From Comamonadaceae bacterium (GTDB lineage: Bacteria; Pseudomonadota; Gammaproteobacteria; Burkholderiales; Burkholderiaceae_C), in NCBI GenBank assembly GCA_947372745.1, contig CANBUY010000001.1, forward strand, positions 1 to 64,000: a stretch of 64,000 bases of DNA, read 5' to 3'. Below the pieces are notes generated by a model. The model saw only the letters and a program-made list of their open reading frames with translations, was not told the DNA's origin and did not search any database. Shown piece by piece: positions 45,021-55,035 of this stretch (position 1 is its first letter; each line of letters begins with the position of its first letter). A program made the position numbers and the translations under genes.

Positions 45021-46251
45021 GGACTTGCACCTCTTTGACGTTGCGCCACACCACGGCCATGCGGGCGCCTTGCTGAACCAATCGGGGATGGTCGTTGTCA
45101 CCCGTGACCTGGCCCAGAACGACCAAGCGGAAACTTTGGCCGCTGTCTTCAGACAACCAGGCTTTCAGTGTGCTGGTGGCACCGCTCACGCTGCGCCACA
45201 CCACGGCGACGCGGGTGCCCCAGGCTTTCACATCGGCGTGTTCGGCAAACTCATCCGGCAGCACACGCACGGTCTCTGGGCGCGGGCTGCCATCGGGCAT
45301 CAGGCGGGCATAGCGCACGGCGGCCACGTCCTCGCCCCCCTCTTTTCGCTGGCCAAACCACACCGTGTGAAAACCACCGTCAGCGGCCAGCGCCAGGCCG
45401 GGGCCGTGGTGCGGGCAGGCGTCAATATGCCAGTCGTCAAAGCTGGCGCGTACCACGGGCGCAGCGTCTGCTGTGTTGAGCATGGCAAAGCCGTGGTCGC
45501 GCACGTTGGCGCCAAACACATGTCGCCACATCGCACGCAGCACGCCGTCTGACCCGGGGGCCAGCGCAATGCGGCAGCACTCACAAGAGTGGTCAGCAAG
45601 TTTGAGGTCGGGGCCAAAGGTAGCACCGCCGTCGAGGGACTCGTTGCGGTAAATGGCTGCGCCCACGTAGCTGGTTTTTTTGCCCACTTTGGGGGCCAGC
45701 AGCATGTCGCGCTTGTCGACCCACAGCGTGTGCAGCACGCCTTGGGCGTCAAAGGCAATCGACTCGAAGCGGTGGGTAATTTCTTGGCGGTCTGCGTGTA
45801 CGGTGAAAGGCGCGGAGAACGTTTGACCGCCATCGGTGGAGCGCAGCATGCGAATCATGCCGGTGTAGGGCTTGGCCAGAGGCTGCGTGTAGCTGATGAC
45901 CACCCAACCCTTGGGTCCAAAAGCGAGCTTGGGCCAGTTTTCACCATCGGCAGACAGGGCGTCTGTGCCGGTTGCAATGATCTGCGGCGCCGTCCATTGC
46001 GGCTTGGCCCCGGCAGCACTTGGGCTGCTTTGTACAAACAGCTTGTTCTCTGCATTGAGCCCGGTGATCCACAAACGGCCATCGGGTGAAAAAGCGGCCC
46101 CGGTGGCCAGTTGCAGGCGCGCCGGATGCGCCCAAGCCGGGTTGCCGCTCAGGACCAAAGCGGCCAGGCAAGCAAGACAAAACCGCCAAAACGCATAGAT
46201 GGCCGCGCTTCGCTCGCCATGACGGGCTTGAGTTGAAAGGCGTGCGTTCAT
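45004..46251 (-). CDS. Sialidase-fold (BNR-repeat) exported protein with Cys/His motifs
   Basis: A 415-residue exported protein. A signal peptide with core FCLACLAALVLSGNPAWA is followed by a predicted six-bladed propeller with Asp-box-like strands (STDGGQTFSAPF, SEDSGQSFRLVV). It is unlikely to be a true sialidase because no catalytic Arg/Tyr set was recognised. It carries SCECCRIALAP and DACPHHGPGLA, cysteine and histidine clusters that could bind copper. Its place between exbD and a thioredoxin-like gene in a PCu(A)C operon supports a metal role. The start shares ATGA with exbD. Residues 9-22 (ARHGERSAAIYAFW) are encoded by a GTCATTGCGAG-type repeat and form the n-region of the signal peptide. 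Confidence 0.78.
   Translation of the reverse strand: MNARLSTQARHGERSAAIYAFWRFCLACLAALVLSGNPAWAHPARLQLATGAAFSPDGRLWITGLNAENKLFVQSSPSAAGAKPQWTAPQIIATGTDALSADGENWPKLAFGPKGWVVISYTQPLAKPYTGMIRMLRSTDGGQTFSAPFTVHADRQEITHRFESIAFDAQGVLHTLWVDKRDMLLAPKVGKKTSYVGAAIYRNESLDGGATFGPDLKLADHSCECCRIALAPGSDGVLRAMWRHVFGANVRDHGFAMLNTADAAPVVRASFDDWHIDACPHHGPGLALAADGGFHTVWFGQRKEGGEDVAAVRYARLMPDGSPRPETVRVLPDEFAEHADVKAWGTRVAVVWRSVSGATSTLKAWLSEDSGQSFRLVVLGQVTGDNDHPRLVQQGARMAVVWRNVKEVQVHDLRF
46190..46228 (-). repeat. GTCATTGCGAG-type repeat at the start of a coding sequence
   Basis: On the minus strand it reads CGTCATGGCGAGCGAAGCGC followed by GGCCATCTATG. It lies 24 bases into the sialidase-fold gene and supplies 13-14 codons before the hydrophobic signal core. 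Confidence 0.75.
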
Positions 46252-46667
46252 GGGGTGGGCTCGGTGATGAAGCCGATTTTCTTGATGCCGGTCTTTTGGG
46301 CCAAGGCCATGGCGCCTGCTACGCGCTCGTAGCGCACGGCTTTGTCGCCGCGAATATGCAGTTCAGGCTGCGGCACGCGGGTGCTGGCGGCTTGGAGTTG
46401 CAGAGCCAGGCCGGCGTCATCAACAGGGGCTTCGTTCCAGTAATACTGGCCGGTGGCATCCACACTCAGGCGAATGGTCTCGGGCTTGGCGTCCTGCGGC
46501 TGGTTGCTGGCCCGGGGCAGGTCAATAGTGACCGCGTGTTTCATCACTGGCACGGTGATGATGAAGATGATGAGCAGTACCAGCATGACGTCCACGAGTG
46601 GTGTCATGTTGATTTCGTTCATCACCTCGTCGGTGTCATCCTGGGTTCCAAAAGCCATGGTGGTCAA
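46248..46667 (-). CDS. exbD: Biopolymer transport protein ExbD
   Basis: A 139-residue inner-membrane protein with one N-terminal helix. The proton-path aspartate is D26 in MTPLVDVMLVLLIIFIITVP. The periplasmic domain includes PELHIRGDKAVRYERV. With ExbB it turns proton flow into force on TonB. The start overlaps the exbB stop by 4 bases (ATGA), and its own stop overlaps the next start in the same way. Confidence 0.93.
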   Translation of the reverse strand: MTTMAFGTQDDTDEVMNEINMTPLVDVMLVLLIIFIITVPVMKHAVTIDLPRASNQPQDAKPETIRLSVDATGQYYWNEAPVDDAGLALQLQAASTRVPQPELHIRGDKAVRYERVAGAMALAQKTGIKKIGFITEPTP

Positions 46668-47407
46668 CCTTTGCGCTTGGGCAGCACTTGGGCGCCGTGG
46701 CCAAAGGAGGCACTGGTGCCGACCCGGGCACCGGTCACAAACAACGCGTGCAAGTCGTAGGCAAAGCGGTTGAGCTTGCCGATGACGCCCTTGTTGCCCC
46801 GCACCAGTGCGTTGTAGCCCAGCACGGCGGGAATCGCCACAGCCAAGCCGAGCGCGGTCATGATGAGCGCCTCGCCAATCGGACCGGCCACTTTGTCGAT
46901 GGTCGATTGCCCGGCGGCGCCAATGGCCAGCAGCGCGTGGTAAATGCCCCAGACCGTGCCAAACAAACCGACAAACGGCGCTGTAGAGCCGACCGAGGCC
47001 AGCACCGCCAACCCCGATTGCAGCTCGGCCGTGGCGTGGTCAATTGAGCCCCGCAGGCAGCGCGTCACCCAGTCGTTGCGGTCCAGTGAGTCAATCAGTT
47101 GGCGATTGCCCTCATGCGGCAACAGATGCGCATCCGCTTCTTGCGCGGTGATGGCCAAGTGGCGAAAGGGGTTGGACGCTTCGTCAGCCAACTGGGTCAA
47201 GCCTTGGGCAAAGTCCGGGGCATGCCAGAACTGCTCAAGAGCCAAGGCCTGCTTGGCGGCCTGGCGCAAACCCAGCGCCTTGATGAGGATCACCACCCAG
47301 GACGCCAAAGACATGGCCAGCAACAGCAAGGCCACCGTGCGGGTCACGAGGTCGCCCTGGGTCCAAAGAGACATCAAACCAGATTCAGCATTCATTAAAT
47401 AAGTCAC
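46664..47407 (-). CDS. exbB: Biopolymer transport protein ExbB (MotA/TolQ family)
   Basis: A 247-residue protein with three helices: one near residues 20-45 (VALLLLAMSLASWVVILIKAL) and two in the conserved C-terminal half (STAPFVGLFGTVWGIYHAL; GEALIMTALGLAVAIPAVL). The cytoplasmic loop lies between the first and second. It is the pentameric motor partner of ExbD. ATGA overlaps join it to tonB upstream and exbD downstream. Confidence 0.93.
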   Translation of the reverse strand: MTYLMNAESGLMSLWTQGDLVTRTVALLLLAMSLASWVVILIKALGLRQAAKQALALEQFWHAPDFAQGLTQLADEASNPFRHLAITAQEADAHLLPHEGNRQLIDSLDRNDWVTRCLRGSIDHATAELQSGLAVLASVGSTAPFVGLFGTVWGIYHALLAIGAAGQSTIDKVAGPIGEALIMTALGLAVAIPAVLGYNALVRGNKGVIGKLNRFAYDLHALFVTGARVGTSASFGHGAQVLPKRKG

Positions 47408-48036
47408 TCCAAAACAAAATTAATCGGCACGTTAAACCACATGGCCTCGGCCACGCCACCACGCTTACCGGGCACATAGCGCCAGCGTTGCGCCGTCATT
47501 AAAGCCGCTTGGTCCAGCCGCTCAAAACCGCTGGACTGGCGGATTTCAGCTTTTTGAACCACGCCGTCCACCCCTATCAGCACCCGCACCACCACCTTGC
47601 CCTGCTCGCCCAAACGCTTGCTCATGCCCGGGTAGGCGGGTTTGGGGTTTTGCAGGTAGTCGGCGTCGCTGGAAGGGAGCTCGACTTTGGGCGCCGCCAC
47701 CGGAGCCGGTGGGGCCGTGATGGCGGGCAGTGGCACGGCCCGCGCCACAACGCCCACTGGCGCATTCGGGGCAGGGGTCGGCTCGGCAATAGCCAGCGGC
47801 ATCGGCGGCGGCGTCTCGGTTTTGCGCACCACCGGTGCCGCCACCACTTTGGGCAGCACCGGCGGTGGAATCACCCGGGGCTTGGGCGGCTCGATGAATT
47901 CACTGAGCATTTGCACTGGCACCAGCACTTCCACCACGCGGCGGATCAAGCCCGTTTGCAAGGCCCACAGCGCCGCCCCATGGAACAGCAAAACGCTGGC
48001 CACGATAAGGGTGTTGCGGGAGAGGGGTTTGGACAT
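47404..48036 (-). CDS. tonB: Energy transducer TonB
   Basis: A 210-residue protein with one N-terminal anchor (LIVASVLLFHGAALWAL), a proline-rich periplasmic stretch (EPPKPRVIPPPVLPKV onward) and the TonB C-terminal domain (PAYPGMSKRLGEQGKVVVRV, SGFERLDQAALMTAQRWRY). It spans the periplasm to drive TonB-dependent receptors. It lies 7 bases after a receptor gene, so this TonB is probably dedicated to, or at least co-made with, that receptor. Confidence 0.94.
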   Translation of the reverse strand: MSKPLSRNTLIVASVLLFHGAALWALQTGLIRRVVEVLVPVQMLSEFIEPPKPRVIPPPVLPKVVAAPVVRKTETPPPMPLAIAEPTPAPNAPVGVVARAVPLPAITAPPAPVAAPKVELPSSDADYLQNPKPAYPGMSKRLGEQGKVVVRVLIGVDGVVQKAEIRQSSGFERLDQAALMTAQRWRYVPGKRGGVAEAMWFNVPINFVLE

Positions 48037-50369: not shown

Positions 50370-50726
50370 TCAGGAGAAAGCGGGGGGACCACGCGCGGGC
50401 GGTGGCGCAGCGGTGAGGGCGGCGATGATGGCCGCAGGAATGCTTTGCAGCACATAGGCCAGTGGCTGCACCGGTTCAACCGCCAAAGACGCTGCCGGAG
50501 GCGGAGCGCTGCTGGTCGCACACAAAGGGCAATCCAGAGATTTGACGCTAAGGTCTGTCGACCCATCATCGCCCTGAATCTGCAACTTCATCACCCCCAT
50601 GCTGGAGCAAATCAGCTCCATAGCCTGCGATTTGACCAATGGTGAGGCAATGGCCACACCCACCGACAAGGCGAACCACACCAGCACGAAGCGGGCGAGA
50701 AGGTGGGCGTTGCGCAGGGTTTGCAT
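50370..50726 (-). CDS. DUF2946 family protein
   Basis: A 118-residue small protein with an N-terminal hydrophobic segment (LLARFVLVWFALSVGVAIAS) and two cysteine sites typical of DUF2946 (MELICSSMG and LDCPLC). Members are commonly found next to copper receptors and copper chaperones and are suspected of metal handling, but no activity is established. The C-terminal third is Ala/Pro-rich. It sits between two receptor genes on the same strand. Confidence 0.75.
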   Translation of the reverse strand: MQTLRNAHLLARFVLVWFALSVGVAIASPLVKSQAMELICSSMGVMKLQIQGDDGSTDLSVKSLDCPLCATSSAPPPAASLAVEPVQPLAYVLQSIPAAIIAALTAAPPPARGPPAFS

Positions 50727-50769: not shown

Positions 50770-52926
50770 TTAAAGTGGCAAGACCAGCCGCAAGCCCAAG
50801 CTCCAGTTTCTGCCGGGCGCAGGTTCGTAAAACTGCGAATAAGCCTGATTGACAATGACCGAGCCCACATAGCGCTCATCGGTCAGGTTGTCGATGCGGG
50901 CGTAGGTGGTCAAACTGCCCGAACCCAGCGCCCAACCGTGGCTGGCCTTGAGGTTCAAGGTGGTGTAGCCCTCCGCCGAGGCGGTGTTGCTGTCGTTGGC
51001 AAACAGGCGCCCTGCCTGCGTCAACTCAATCCCCGCCTGACTGCCCAGCGTCTTGCCAACTTTGCCGCCGTCCATTTTCTGGCCCGTCCAGAGCAATTCG
51101 GAAAACAGAAAACTCTGGGGGATGCCGGGGAGTTTGCTGCCGGCTGAAACAGGGGTGGAGCCAATCGCTGTCACGCTGGTGAAGCCCTGTGAATAGTGGG
51201 CATCAATGCTGGAAGCTGAAACAGTGGCCTTAAGGTGAGGGCTAAACAAGGTGCTGCCCGACAATTCCCAACCCGTGCGGGAAGTACCCGGTGCGTTTTG
51301 GTAGGCGGTCTGCCCGCTTTTACTAACTGCCACCACAATCTCATCGGTCGATTTGATTTGGTACACCGTGAAATCAAGCCTCGAACCGGCACTGGGCGCC
51401 CACTTGGCGCCCAATTCATAATGCTGGCTGCTTGATGCATTGAGTGAGGGGTTGAATGCAGCCACGGGGGTCGAGGTGCCATCGTACTTGTAAGCCATCT
51501 CCGACAAGGTGGGGGTTTCAAAGCCCTTGCCATAGTTGGCGTACACATTGAGTTGTTCACTGGCGTGGTAGGTCATGCCCAGTACGGGGCTGCTTGACTG
51601 GTAGCGTGTCGTCCCTGAACCCTGGCCGCTGCCAAAAATATCATCGCTTGCAAAGCTGACCGTGCTGTAGCGCAAGCCTGTCACCAGTGAGATTTTCTCT
51701 GACACGAGTGCCGTGGCCTGAATGAAGCCATCGCTGTTGTCAGACTGGTTCACTTCGTTGCGGGTCAGCGTGTCTTTCTCTCCCAGCTTTGTAGCACCTG
51801 CAGCGCCTGCTTGGCGCGTTTCACTGGAGCGATCATATTCGTAACCGGCCACCCAGTTCACCAGCGTTGCGCCCAGGCTTGTTTTGGCGTTGTACTGCAA
51901 GCCGGTGCCGTAGTAAGTGCGGGCCAAGCCGGTCCAGGCGCCCGTGACGTTGCCCGTGGGTGAGCCGACCTGGAATTGCAGGTTATCGCGGGTGCCGTAA
52001 TACAGACGCGCCGTCAGCGATCGATCGGCGTCGATCTCGTGCTTGACCGAGGTGCCCAACTGGTTTTGCAACACCGCTTTACGCACCCGGAAATCGGCGG
52101 CCGTGGTGGTGTCTGGCACGTAGGTCAACCCAACCTTTTTTATTTTCGTCCCCGCCTGGGTTGGATCAGCCGCCATCTGGGCGGCTGTCAACCCCAGCGC
52201 ATCCTGCGCCAAGGGCATATCAAATTGGTTAAACACCATATTGACATGTGTTTTCTCAAAGGCATCAAAACTCAGCTTGCCGTTGAACTGCTTGCGCTCG
52301 GCCTTGCTGTTGACGCGGTAGCCCTCAATATCAAAGGTGCTGTAGTCAGCCACCAGACCGACTTCACCCACATGCCCGGCATATTGCCAGTCGCTGCGGC
52401 GCATGCCAAATGAGCCGGTGTACAACTGGGCACCAAACTCGGGTTTCTCAGGCGCATCGCGGGTAAAGGCTTGTATGACCCCGCCTGAAGAATTGCCATA
52501 CATCTGCGCCAAGGGGCCCCGCAGCACTTCAATGCGTTCGGTGGAAGGCAAGCTGATGGACGAACTCTGACCCTGCCCGTCGGGCGTGGTAGCCGGAATG
52601 CCGTCAATCAGCAAACGCACGCCCCGCATGCCAAAGGCTGAGCGGGCGCCAAAACCCCGGATAGAAACTTGCAGGTCTTGCGCGTAGTTTTGGCGGTTCA
52701 GAATGGTCAAGCCTGGCACCCGGTTCAACGACTCGGAGAGATTGACCTGCGGTCCTGCATTCTCAATGGTGGTGCGGTCAATCGTCTGGATCGAGGCCGG
52801 GGTGTCAAAACTGCGCTGCTCGGTGCGCGATGCAGAGACCACCACATCGGACAAAGTCTGTGCATGGGCCGTACTTACCAATGAAGTTACGAGGCCGGCA
52901 AACGCTAGCGCTGATTTTTTTTTCAT
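50770..52926 (-). CDS. TonB-dependent receptor resembling the PQQ receptor PqqU (YncD)
   Basis: A 718-residue receptor. It matches what I recall of E. coli PqqU/YncD along the plug (VNLSESLNRVPGL, NRQNYAQDLQVSIRGFG, GVRLLIDGIPATTPDGQGQS) and at the barrel end (RIDNLTDERYVGSVIVN, FYEPAPGRNWSLGL). PqqU imports pyrroloquinoline quinone. The gene upstream on the same strand is a soluble PQQ-type dehydrogenase and the one between is a cytochrome c, so PQQ is a coherent ligand here. The signal peptide is MKKKSALAFAGLVTSLVSTA. Ligand identity remains an inference until aligned and tested. Confidence 0.85.
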   Translation of the reverse strand: MKKKSALAFAGLVTSLVSTAHAQTLSDVVVSASRTEQRSFDTPASIQTIDRTTIENAGPQVNLSESLNRVPGLTILNRQNYAQDLQVSIRGFGARSAFGMRGVRLLIDGIPATTPDGQGQSSSISLPSTERIEVLRGPLAQMYGNSSGGVIQAFTRDAPEKPEFGAQLYTGSFGMRRSDWQYAGHVGEVGLVADYSTFDIEGYRVNSKAERKQFNGKLSFDAFEKTHVNMVFNQFDMPLAQDALGLTAAQMAADPTQAGTKIKKVGLTYVPDTTTAADFRVRKAVLQNQLGTSVKHEIDADRSLTARLYYGTRDNLQFQVGSPTGNVTGAWTGLARTYYGTGLQYNAKTSLGATLVNWVAGYEYDRSSETRQAGAAGATKLGEKDTLTRNEVNQSDNSDGFIQATALVSEKISLVTGLRYSTVSFASDDIFGSGQGSGTTRYQSSSPVLGMTYHASEQLNVYANYGKGFETPTLSEMAYKYDGTSTPVAAFNPSLNASSSQHYELGAKWAPSAGSRLDFTVYQIKSTDEIVVAVSKSGQTAYQNAPGTSRTGWELSGSTLFSPHLKATVSASSIDAHYSQGFTSVTAIGSTPVSAGSKLPGIPQSFLFSELLWTGQKMDGGKVGKTLGSQAGIELTQAGRLFANDSNTASAEGYTTLNLKASHGWALGSGSLTTYARIDNLTDERYVGSVIVNQAYSQFYEPAPGRNWSLGLRLVLPL

Positions 52927-52955
52927 GGTGTGTTAAAAAATTATTTGTTAAAAAA

Positions 52956-53270
52956 TCAAGGGGTTTCAACGCTGACTTTGATGGCACTAAACCATGCACC
53001 AAGATGAGAAATTTCTGAGTCTGTCAAATTTTTTGCGATCATGTTCATCACCTCGTTCTGGCGTTTACCGCTGCGGTAATTGCGTAATTGCTCCACCACA
53101 TAAATGGCCTGTTGCCCTGCCAGGTTCGGGGCATTCGGCAGCGTAGAAAGACCGTTGACGCCGTGACACAAAGCGCACGCGGTATCAGCTTTGGCGCGAC
53201 CTGCCGCCACGTCATCGGCATAGCTGTTGAGTGAAGAAAATATGAGGTAAATAACAATAAAAATTTTCAT
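52956..53270 (-). CDS. Small periplasmic cytochrome c
   Basis: About 104 residues. The signal peptide (MKIFIVIYLIFSSLNSYA) starts at ATG 53270, preferred over 53300 because the extra 10 residues would spoil it. One haem site, CALCH, lies near the N-terminus, with an axial methionine candidate in NEVMNMIAKNL. The fold pattern (LAGQQAIYVVEQLRNYRSGK) is that of cytochrome c553/c4-half type carriers. It lies between a PQQ-type dehydrogenase and a PqqU-like receptor, so it is the likely electron acceptor of the dehydrogenase. Confidence 0.88.
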   Translation of the reverse strand: MKIFIVIYLIFSSLNSYADDVAAGRAKADTACALCHGVNGLSTLPNAPNLAGQQAIYVVEQLRNYRSGKRQNEVMNMIAKNLTDSEISHLGAWFSAIKVSVETP

Positions 53271-53291
53271 GATGCGTTCGTCTAAATAATT

Positions 53292-53311
53292 GGGGCCCAC
53301 GCATGGGCCCC
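53292..53311 (-). terminator. GC-rich hairpin upstream of the cytochrome gene
   Basis: GGGGCCCA-CGCA-TGGGCCCC is a perfect 8-bp stem. On the minus strand it is followed by AATTATTT, which is not a full T run. It could end most transcripts of the dehydrogenase gene or protect the processed mRNA ends. Confidence 0.5.
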
Positions 53312-53324
53312 CTATTTCATTTCA

Positions 53325-53345
53325 TCAAAGGCACAGAGCCTTTGA
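53325..53345 (-). terminator. Second hairpin just after the dehydrogenase stop
   Basis: TCAAAGGC-ACAGA-GCCTTTGA is a perfect 8-bp stem 11 bases beyond the dehydrogenase stop codon. With the hairpin at 53292-53311 it makes a tandem pair in an 86-base gap, consistent with partial termination or mRNA processing between dehydrogenase and cytochrome. Confidence 0.5.
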
Positions 53346-53356
53346 TTTAAACCCGA

Positions 53357-54634
53357 TCAGGTGCCGCTGTAGCTAATCCGATAGAGTGCGCCAGCGTAGT
53401 CGTCAGACACGAGGATAGAGCCATCTGGCAGATTGACCACGTCTACAGGTCGGGCCAAGGCGCGACCCGTCGTTTTATCCAGGAAGCCGTCTGCAAATAC
53501 TTCGGAAGCACCCGCATTGCCGTCTGCTTTGATCGGCACAAAGTTGAGCAAGTAGCCACTAGGTACGGTACGGTTCCAGGAGCCGTGGGATGCCACAAAC
53601 AAACCGCCCTGGTACTTCTTCGGAAACGCTGAACCCGTGTAGTGCGTCAAGCCTAGCTGAGCTTGGTGAGCAGGAAATTCAACTTGTGGGTAGATGTGGC
53701 CAGCAGGTTCTTTCATGTCCTTCAGGTCAGGGGCTGCCGCTGAGCCCGCCACCTTGAAGTGACCGTTGTAATAGGGGAATCCGAAGTGCTCCCCCTCTTT
53801 GCTGATTTTGTTCAACTCACCTGGTGGAATGTCATCACCCAATCCGTCCACTTGGTTGTCAGTCGCCCAGATGTCGCCCTTGGGTCCGATGGACAGACCG
53901 GCGGGATTACGCATGCCTTTGGAGTAGACCGTGCGACCGGTTCCGTCCAAGCCGTTGTAGCGCACGATGCCGCCAATACCCAAACTCTCATACAGCGCCA
54001 CTTTGTCTGCGGGTTGCACGTTGTGGGGTTGGCCCAAGTTGACAAAAATTTTGCCATCTTTGTCAACCTTGCAAACGCGTCCTGTGTGGTTGAAAGACTG
54101 CTCTTCTACGGGAATCAGCTTGCCTTCGGGGACGATCACGCCCACAGCAACGTCCGGACCTTCATAGAAGTATTCGGCTGCAGGAAAGTGCAGGATGCGG
54201 TTTGACTCAGCAACGATCAGGAAGCCGTCTTTCGTAAAGCAAACGCCGTTGGGGTTGCTGAATTTAATGGACGGTGCAAACGCTTTTACTTCTGTAGCCG
54301 CATCGCCGTTGTTGCGGTTAGTCACGGCCCAAACCGTGGTTTTTCGCGTACCAACAAAAAGCATGTTGGTCGATGGGGCTACGGCCATGTAGCGGGCATC
54401 AGGCACCACCGCATAGAGCTCAATCTTGAACCCATCAGGCAACTTGACCTTTTTCAGATTCGCCCGGATGGCATCAGCGTTTTTACCCTCTTGGGCAACC
54501 GTCGCAATGTTCATGTTGGTGGCGGTGTTGCCCATACGCTGAAGCGTCGACAGGTTTTGGTCCTGCGCATAGGCGACGTTCGTGCCCAGTGAGGCAACGG
54601 CAACCGCAAGTGCGGCAAGCTTAAAAAATTTCAT
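53357..54634 (-). CDS. PQQ-dependent sugar dehydrogenase (sorbosone dehydrogenase-like)
   Basis: A 425-residue exported protein (signal peptide MKFFKLAALAVAVASLGTNV) of the soluble glucose/sorbosone dehydrogenase propeller family. Segments: LPDGFKIELYAVVPDARYMA, FVGTRKTTVWAV, GMRNPAGLSIGPKGDIWATD, GEHFGFPYYNGH, LGLTHYTGSAF, GLFVASHGSWNR and ARPVDVVNLPDGSILVSDD. Family members bind PQQ and calcium in the propeller centre and oxidise sugars or sugar aldehydes in the periplasm. The substrate is unknown. A cytochrome c and a PqqU-like receptor follow on the same strand. A promoter candidate lies about 100 bases upstream. Confidence 0.88.
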   Translation of the reverse strand: MKFFKLAALAVAVASLGTNVAYAQDQNLSTLQRMGNTATNMNIATVAQEGKNADAIRANLKKVKLPDGFKIELYAVVPDARYMAVAPSTNMLFVGTRKTTVWAVTNRNNGDAATEVKAFAPSIKFSNPNGVCFTKDGFLIVAESNRILHFPAAEYFYEGPDVAVGVIVPEGKLIPVEEQSFNHTGRVCKVDKDGKIFVNLGQPHNVQPADKVALYESLGIGGIVRYNGLDGTGRTVYSKGMRNPAGLSIGPKGDIWATDNQVDGLGDDIPPGELNKISKEGEHFGFPYYNGHFKVAGSAAAPDLKDMKEPAGHIYPQVEFPAHQAQLGLTHYTGSAFPKKYQGGLFVASHGSWNRTVPSGYLLNFVPIKADGNAGASEVFADGFLDKTTGRALARPVDVVNLPDGSILVSDDYAGALYRISYSGT

Positions 54635-55035
54635 GGAATTTCCTTCGTTTGGGGTGATTGCGTTTAAGGTGAATTTAGAAATAAGATTTTTTTCTAGATC
54701 ACATTGATTACTTTATCCATGACGATTAAGCCGATTTATAGGGTAAACCCGTCACTTGTCACGTGAGTGTCAGAAAAATTCGTTTATTTTTTCTAATTAA
54801 TTTAAAAAAAATTTCAATTGACCAACTGATGAATTTTGCTGATTATTTTTTCGCGAATATAGGCTTGCTATGCTTTTGTAAAAGAAGAACAAAAAAAATA
54901 GGCCGCTGGAGCGCTGCTTCTTGCTCAAGTTGTAGTCACCAAATCGTTTCTGAACGGGCTTCTAAACTTGACTATGGTCAAAGCCCCCCGGACTTCGTCG
55001 GCGCATGATGAACGCTCTTACCCTGAAAGTTTTTC
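54635..55035. other. AT-rich divergent promoter region
   Basis: About 400 bases between the dehydrogenase (minus) and the DksA-like gene (plus). It is strongly AT-rich between 54770 and 54900. It contains the CACGTG palindrome at 54760-54765 and the promoter candidate at 54735-54762. No protein or RNA gene was recognised. Confidence 0.45.
54735..54762 (-). promoter_or_regulatory. Candidate sigma-70 promoter for the PQQ dehydrogenase operon
   Basis: On the minus strand GTGACA (54762-54757) and TATAAA (54740-54735) each match five of six consensus positions, with a 16-base spacer. The start codon is about 100 bases downstream. A CACGTG palindrome overlaps the -35 and could be a regulator site. 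Confidence 0.45.

Follow-up and report, generated by a model that had tools for sequence, protein, structure and literature searches.

A stretch of 64,000 nucleotides from a Comamonadaceae bacterium of the order Burkholderiales (GenBank assembly GCA_947372745.1, contig CANBUY010000001.1, positions 1 to 64,000 of the forward strand), called the window throughout, carries in three adjacent genes a candidate locus for the capture and use of pyrroloquinoline quinone (PQQ). An earlier note on this DNA, made from the letters alone, had proposed a dehydrogenase, a cytochrome and a receptor here, and all three were confirmed at the coordinates listed below, on the minus strand and in that order. The genes run in one direction with short gaps, about 86 bp from dehydrogenase to cytochrome and 29 bp from cytochrome to receptor.

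53357 to 54634, minus strand: AA12-like soluble quinoprotein dehydrogenase of 425 amino acids, assigned by Pfam, fold match and alignment of PQQ and calcium residues
52956 to about 53270, minus strand: small single-heme cytochrome c, assigned by Pfam Cytochrom_C and one CxxCH
50770 to 52926, minus strand: PqqU-type TonB-dependent receptor of 718 amino acids, assigned by PDB match, residue signature, tree and fold

The resemblance of the receptor to PqqU of E. coli, already remarked in the earlier note, was borne out. Its best PDB sequence matches are 6v81 (YncD) and 9c4o (PqqU), at E about 1e-110 vs 7e-12 for the next entry, and its identity to E. coli PqqU is 36%. In the part of the paper available, the published PqqU survey relied on a residue signature made up of an aromatic residue at position 99, R304 and R365 (Munder et al., 2025; PMC12124388), and the window receptor has this signature as F98, R313 and R371 (for Y99, R304 and R365). 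At E. coli PqqU positions 84, 99, 121, 274, 304, 308, 310, 365, 477, 481 and 536 it carries Q, F, Q, K, R, Q, Q, R, S, Y and Q, respectively, and the contacts common to both proteins, as far as the accessible text of PMC12124388 describes them, are Q84, Y99 (as F), Q121, K274, R304, Q308, Q310, R365 and Y481. In an alignment of 124 receptors, the signature was present in 113/113 rows of a PqqU set that had been chosen by profile or BLAST similarity and in 0/11 other receptors, which include the second TonB-dependent receptor encoded in the window. A quick maximum-likelihood tree with long outgroup branches, assessed by the Shimodaira–Hasegawa-like approximate likelihood ratio test (SH-aLRT) and with no bootstrap, united the window receptor with E. 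coli PqqU in a 109-row clade (SH-aLRT 99), leaving FhuA, FepA, CirA, BtuB and the window's second receptor outside; four receptors from the family of genome G050, taken up below, fall just beyond this clade, and all 113 PqqU rows come together on a branch with a support of 84. The earlier note had named a grouping with siderophore receptors as a refuting outcome, and the tree sets the receptor apart from the siderophore receptors included and with E. coli PqqU. The predicted receptor model, with a predicted local distance difference test (pLDDT) of 83.5, is nearest to the PqqU–PQQ structure 9c4o (E 1.7e-65, TM 0.85/0.92), the first non-PqqU structure following at 1.5e-39.

The receptor thus shares family and fold with E. 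coli PqqU (YncD; 9c4o, 6v81; PMC12124388, in the part available), and from sequence and model we infer that it imports PQQ as PqqU does. The difference lies in the setting: E. coli pqqU adjoins yncE and no dehydrogenase, whereas the neighbours of the window receptor are a cytochrome c and an AA12-like enzyme. A siderophore or B12 receptor identity was ruled out by tree, signature and fold. More generally, the protein could serve some other ligand (siderophore, heme, B12 or a copper chelate) and owe its place to chance or to co-regulation with the copper-type run of genes, a reading that we consider very unlikely. The caution in PMC12124388 that overall similarity is a poor guide to what a TonB-dependent receptor transports speaks for it, as do the genes for a DUF2946 protein, a second receptor, TonB and PCuAC that directly follow, and the NCBIfam PqqU model NF041535, which is the top model for the receptor at 472 bits, below its equivalog cut-off of 1200. 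Phylogeny, fold match and the signature found in 0/11 other receptors argue for a PqqU instead, together with the repeated linkage to quinoprotein genes and the inverse relation to pqqE set out below.

The partner enzyme is a propeller protein whose N-terminus is a signal-like segment (judged by eye). Its description in the earlier note as a soluble PQQ dehydrogenase holds in the sense of an AA12-like propeller that keeps most PQQ and calcium residues, but not in the sense of a classical soluble glucose dehydrogenase (sGDH). The propeller matches Pfam GSDH above the cut-off (43.6 vs 25), and its model (pLDDT 85.6) is nearest to the AA12 structures 6i1q, 6i1t, 6jt5 and 6h7t (Z 38.7–39.1), vs Z 29.7–32.8 for Asd and sGDH structures and Z 26.0 or less for other propellers. 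Classical sGDH was ruled out as the closest relative by fold (Z about 30 vs about 39 for AA12), although Pfam gives only GSDH. With the soluble sGDH/Asd quinoproteins (PF07995; 1c9u, 2g8s, 7cdy) the window enzyme has in common the Pfam family and an expected use of PQQ, but it is structurally nearer AA12. The likeness to fungal AA12 pyranose dehydrogenases, namely that of Coprinopsis cinerea (CcPDH; 6jt5) and the AA12 enzyme of T. reesei (6i1q), extends to the propeller fold and most PQQ and calcium residues; the differences are an identity of about 20%, the lack of an R273 equivalent, the bacterial host and a separate c-type cytochrome gene in place of the fused cytochrome b domain of CcPDH (PMC6881789, in the part available).

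At residue level, H183, R242, N243, H323, H350, W353 and N354 of the propeller correspond to the CcPDH PQQ contacts H363, R430, N431, H539, H560, W563 and N564, and D263 aligns with the calcium ligand D451, in a profile alignment to 6jt5 (offset of 239 computed by hand) whose weak segment holds H183, R242, N243 and D263 and whose strong segment holds H323, H350, W353 and N354. The roles of the CcPDH residues are taken from the accessible part of PMC6881789, which also reports that CcPDH oxidises sugars and that one homologue has 2-keto-glucose dehydrogenase activity. Six of these residues do not vary across 34 aligned sequences (R242, N243, D263, H323, W353 and N354), and the other two, H183 and H350, are at least 90% conserved. 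This conservation bears on the possibility that the propeller no longer uses PQQ and that PqqU serves another quinoprotein, such as the alcohol dehydrogenase of contig C106 described below. Such a loss would fit the identity of only about 20% to solved PQQ enzymes, the missing R273 contact (the aligned residue, in the weak segment, is N129), the AA12-like genes in genomes without detected PqqU and the other PQQ_2-domain proteins in the window's genome. Given the conserved PQQ and calcium residues, the cytochrome partner kept in 79/80 loci and the presence of PqqU or pqqE in 43/44 enzyme-bearing genomes, we regard it as unlikely.

The cytochrome matches Pfam Cytochrom_C at 34.6 bits, above the cut-off, has one CxxCH (CALCH) and most likely starts at the ATG at 53270; we propose that it is the electron acceptor of the dehydrogenase. 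Among the best 80 of 114 loci encoding the enzyme, a cytochrome gene lies directly downstream in 79, and the remaining locus ends at a contig edge. A PqqU-type receptor lies within 2.5 kb of the enzyme in 35 of the 80 (29 downstream, 6 divergent upstream), and PqqU is adjacent in 24 of the 52 loci that leave room on either flank. Rhodoferax lacus IMCC26218 (L035) and Limnohabitans sp. Jir72 (L055) are among the strains that carry the unit. All four genomes of the window's genus with a long enzyme have PqqU beside it, and in Hydrogenophaga and some Limnohabitans a receptor of another PqqU branch occupies the corresponding place. At one further locus (L225, 2–5888) a single PqqU gene has an AA12-like dehydrogenase and a cytochrome c on both flanks.

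The earlier note had found no genes of PQQ synthesis in the window, and this agrees with a search of the whole genome, window included, in which pqqB had no match and the best pqqE match reached 45.6 of 381 bits (the search did not extend to pqqA, pqqC, pqqD or pqqF). No pqqE above the cut-off was detected in any of 36 genomes of the genus (the window's and 35 congeners), 17 of them over 95% complete. Beyond the genus, 44 of the 80 enzyme-bearing genomes were searched whole for PqqU (matches over 300 bits) and pqqE. In this sample, which was chosen partly by adjacency and includes many fragmentary genomes as well as a congener already counted in the genus set (L024), 17 genomes had PqqU only, 16 pqqE only, 10 both and 1 neither (two-sided Fisher p=1.6e-4), so that PqqU, pqqE or both occur in 43/44; pqqE was absent in 13/15 genomes with adjacent PqqU vs 5/29 others (Fisher p=1.2e-5). 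The linkage of PqqU to a client enzyme goes with the absence of PQQ synthesis. We hold it highly improbable that the organism makes PQQ from an operon in the missing part of its assembly and uses the receptor to recapture leaked cofactor. The assembly is indeed 85.8% complete, and PqqU and pqqE do co-occur in the 10 genomes just mentioned and, order-wide, at 11 of 87 PqqU loci; the lack of pqqE above the cut-off throughout the genus and of any pqqB match in the window's genome stands against it. At those 11 loci the pqqE match lies up to about 9 kb away, and four Burkholderiales genomes with PqqU–pqqE synteny, by the paper's own criteria, are reported in the available part of PMC12124388. At L111 (8599–12325) PqqU adjoins pqqE on the same strand.

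Across the order, PqqU was found in 86/250 genomes. The order-wide linkage test covered 87 PqqU loci from 85 genomes, with the window's left out, and 20 control receptor loci; a quinoprotein gene was counted if it scored over 100 bits, and 72 of the 87 loci leave 3 kb of sequence on either side. Such a gene occurs within 3 kb at 28/87 PqqU loci vs 0/20 controls (one-sided p=0.0011), of the AA12 type in 18 cases, GSDH in 6 and PQQ alcohol dehydrogenase (PQQ-ADH) in 4, and within 5 kb at 29 PqqU loci vs 1 control (p=0.007). The 11 pqqE-bearing loci all fall outside these 29. On the receptor tree, the AA12-linked label changes 16 times, at least 14 of them by well-supported branches, and the linkage has therefore been gained or lost many times.

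A second PqqU, 79% identical and scoring 504.7 bits with NF041535, is encoded on contig C106 of the window's assembly (L103, 45–10105). It is divergent to a TIGR03075 PQQ alcohol dehydrogenase (745 vs an NCBIfam cut-off of 480) with a cytochrome c alongside, and nearby are a PQQ-catabolism-associated propeller and an ATP-binding cassette (ABC) gene (TIGR03866 and TIGR03864 matches). Like the window unit, this cluster brings a quinoprotein together with a PqqU-type receptor and a cytochrome c; its client differs from the window enzyme in being larger and of the PQQ_2 family. Elsewhere in the window's genus (G012 and G001), a PQQ alcohol dehydrogenase gene comes directly after PqqU.

The linkage probably extends to ammonia oxidisers. 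Among 24 order representatives, amoA was found in G050 only, in three copies, and the family of this genome is presumably Nitrosomonadaceae. In G050 the open frame immediately following the receptor encodes the dehydrogenase, which scores 478.8 bits with Pfam GSDH and matches solved glucose dehydrogenases at 361 bits (7cdy) and 320 bits (2g8s); unlike the window's, this partner enzyme belongs with the soluble sGDH/Asd quinoproteins. The family was sampled with 61 genomes, genera g16, g26 and g27 among them. In g16, a PqqU match over 500 bits was found in 20/22 genomes (one with an internal stop), and in 18 of these 20 a GSDH-type match lies within 6 kb on the same contig and strand, these being matches to the AA12 profile, mostly weak (37–48 bits), with the GSDH type checked for G050 (Pfam) and for G078 and G070 (phmmer). 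In g27, PqqU co-occurs with an AA12-like gene in all 22 sampled genomes, the two being either separated by at least 160 kb or carried on different contigs, and six of the PqqU loci, with about 1.5 kb of flank, gave no match to a PQQ-ADH or GSDH query. The published survey reports, in the portion available, no PQQ-dependent enzyme in 40 PqqU-bearing Nitrosomonadaceae, and the Pfam list given there comprises PF01011, PF13360 and PF13570, plus one published profile, with PF07995 absent (Munder et al., 2025; PMC12124388). The GSDH-type genes near g16 receptors are possibly a testable answer to the puzzle of PqqU without a quinoprotein. As a separate observation, L122 (8047–11475) and the G050 family have a PqqU with E for K274, followed by a GSDH-type quinoprotein; this K-to-E change is the one that has been proposed for metal co-transport (PMC12124388, in the part available). 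For the Burkholderiales as a whole, PqqU may have come repeatedly to lie beside soluble AA12 or GSDH enzymes as lineages lost PQQ synthesis, which would make these enzymes, absent from the survey's Pfam list, the overlooked clients of 'orphan' PqqU, ammonia oxidisers included, a generalization to which we give slightly less than an even chance. In its boldest form, each receptor copy would be dedicated to one client, with PQQ handed straight to the neighbouring apo-enzyme.

For the window itself, protein comparisons and predicted models suggest that the three genes most probably constitute a cofactor-scavenging respiratory unit of PQQ receptor, client dehydrogenase and cytochrome. The receptor, powered by TonB–ExbBD, would bind scarce external PQQ and bring it into the periplasm, where PQQ and calcium would load the apo-dehydrogenase; the enzyme would then oxidise a sugar or aldehyde-like substrate, and the cytochrome would reoxidise the reduced PQQ and feed the respiratory chain. 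The PqqU receptor and the enzyme family are known, the arrangement of receptor, client and cytochrome appears to be new, and no published PqqU–AA12 or PqqU–GSDH unit was found among the literature matches listed. Such a unit would connect an outer-membrane importer with the enzyme that it likely serves and with an acceptor for the electrons; import and synthesis would be largely alternative sources of PQQ for one enzyme.

Besides the low NCBIfam score and the missing R273 contact given above, several observations weigh against this scavenging unit. Of the PQQ contacts, which the earlier note had proposed to compare, R536 and N477 are changed to Q539 and S475 in the receptor; R536, in loop 8, is described as a less conserved position and was not required by the survey (PMC12124388, in the part available). 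In the enzyme, CcPDH R621 is paired with R395 by motif reading only. Among the 52 roomy loci, 28 lack a PqqU next to the enzyme, and these take in every one of the 13 with a 70–80% identical enzyme; at 59/87 PqqU loci of the order, no quinoprotein gene was seen within 3 kb. AA12-like genes occur without PqqU in 17 of the 44 genomes searched whole and in all 9 g26 genomes; in Jezberella montanilacus (L101), which has enzyme and cytochrome, the whole-genome search found neither PqqU nor pqqE, and this organism may obtain PQQ by diffusion or through a different receptor. The relation between PqqU and pqqE is not significant in the 29 loci without adjacent PqqU (p=0.13), the 44 genomes are phylogenetically non-independent, and a pair test points in the same direction without reaching significance (5 pairs, median p 0.25–0.5). 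The window's assembly (217 contigs, 6.4% contaminated) is incomplete and slightly contaminated, and for this reason the missing pqq genes are not proof; contig C106 might be foreign to the genome. Finally, the receptor would perhaps be transcribed apart from the enzyme if a faint promoter-like site before its gene is real.

That site is one of three possible signals of transcription or processing at the locus.

54635 to 54900, minus strand: AT-rich leader upstream of the dehydrogenase, from sequence reading
53292 to 53311, minus strand: GC-rich 8-bp inverted repeat between the dehydrogenase and cytochrome genes, from a sequence scan
52940 to 52969, minus strand: promoter-like site directly ahead of the receptor gene, match 10 of 12, from a sequence scan

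The leader is probably the promoter region; the promoter scan of the region gave no minus-strand promoter-like match in it. The inverted repeat is a possible processing or attenuation site and counts as weak evidence because terminator-like sites in the region occur at chance number (16 found vs 15.3 expected). The site ahead of the receptor is likewise weak evidence because promoter-like sites are near their chance number (6 vs 4.5 expected).

Downstream of the receptor, the minus strand continues with the following genes.

50370 to 50726, minus strand: DUF2946 protein bearing CPLC and RGPP motifs at a distance of 42 residues
43974 to 50290, minus strand: second TonB-dependent receptor, TonB, ExbB/ExbD, BNR-like protein, weakly DsbG-like protein and PCuAC
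47404 to 48036, minus strand: TonB, by TonB_C Pfam match
46664 to 47407, minus strand: open reading frame that we take to be ExbB, from its sequence
46248 to 46667, minus strand: open reading frame that we take to be ExbD, on the same basis

The run from DUF2946 to PCuAC, directly after the PQQ unit, is probably concerned with copper uptake. The TonB–ExbB–ExbD genes (46248 to 48036) are a possible energiser of the receptor; alternatively, they may be part of the copper-type run. The DUF2946 protein resembles the copper-sensing upstream reading frame CruR, as described in the available part of PMC9426467. At three other loci (L040, L061 and L084), TonB and ExbB matches also come after the enzyme–cytochrome pair.

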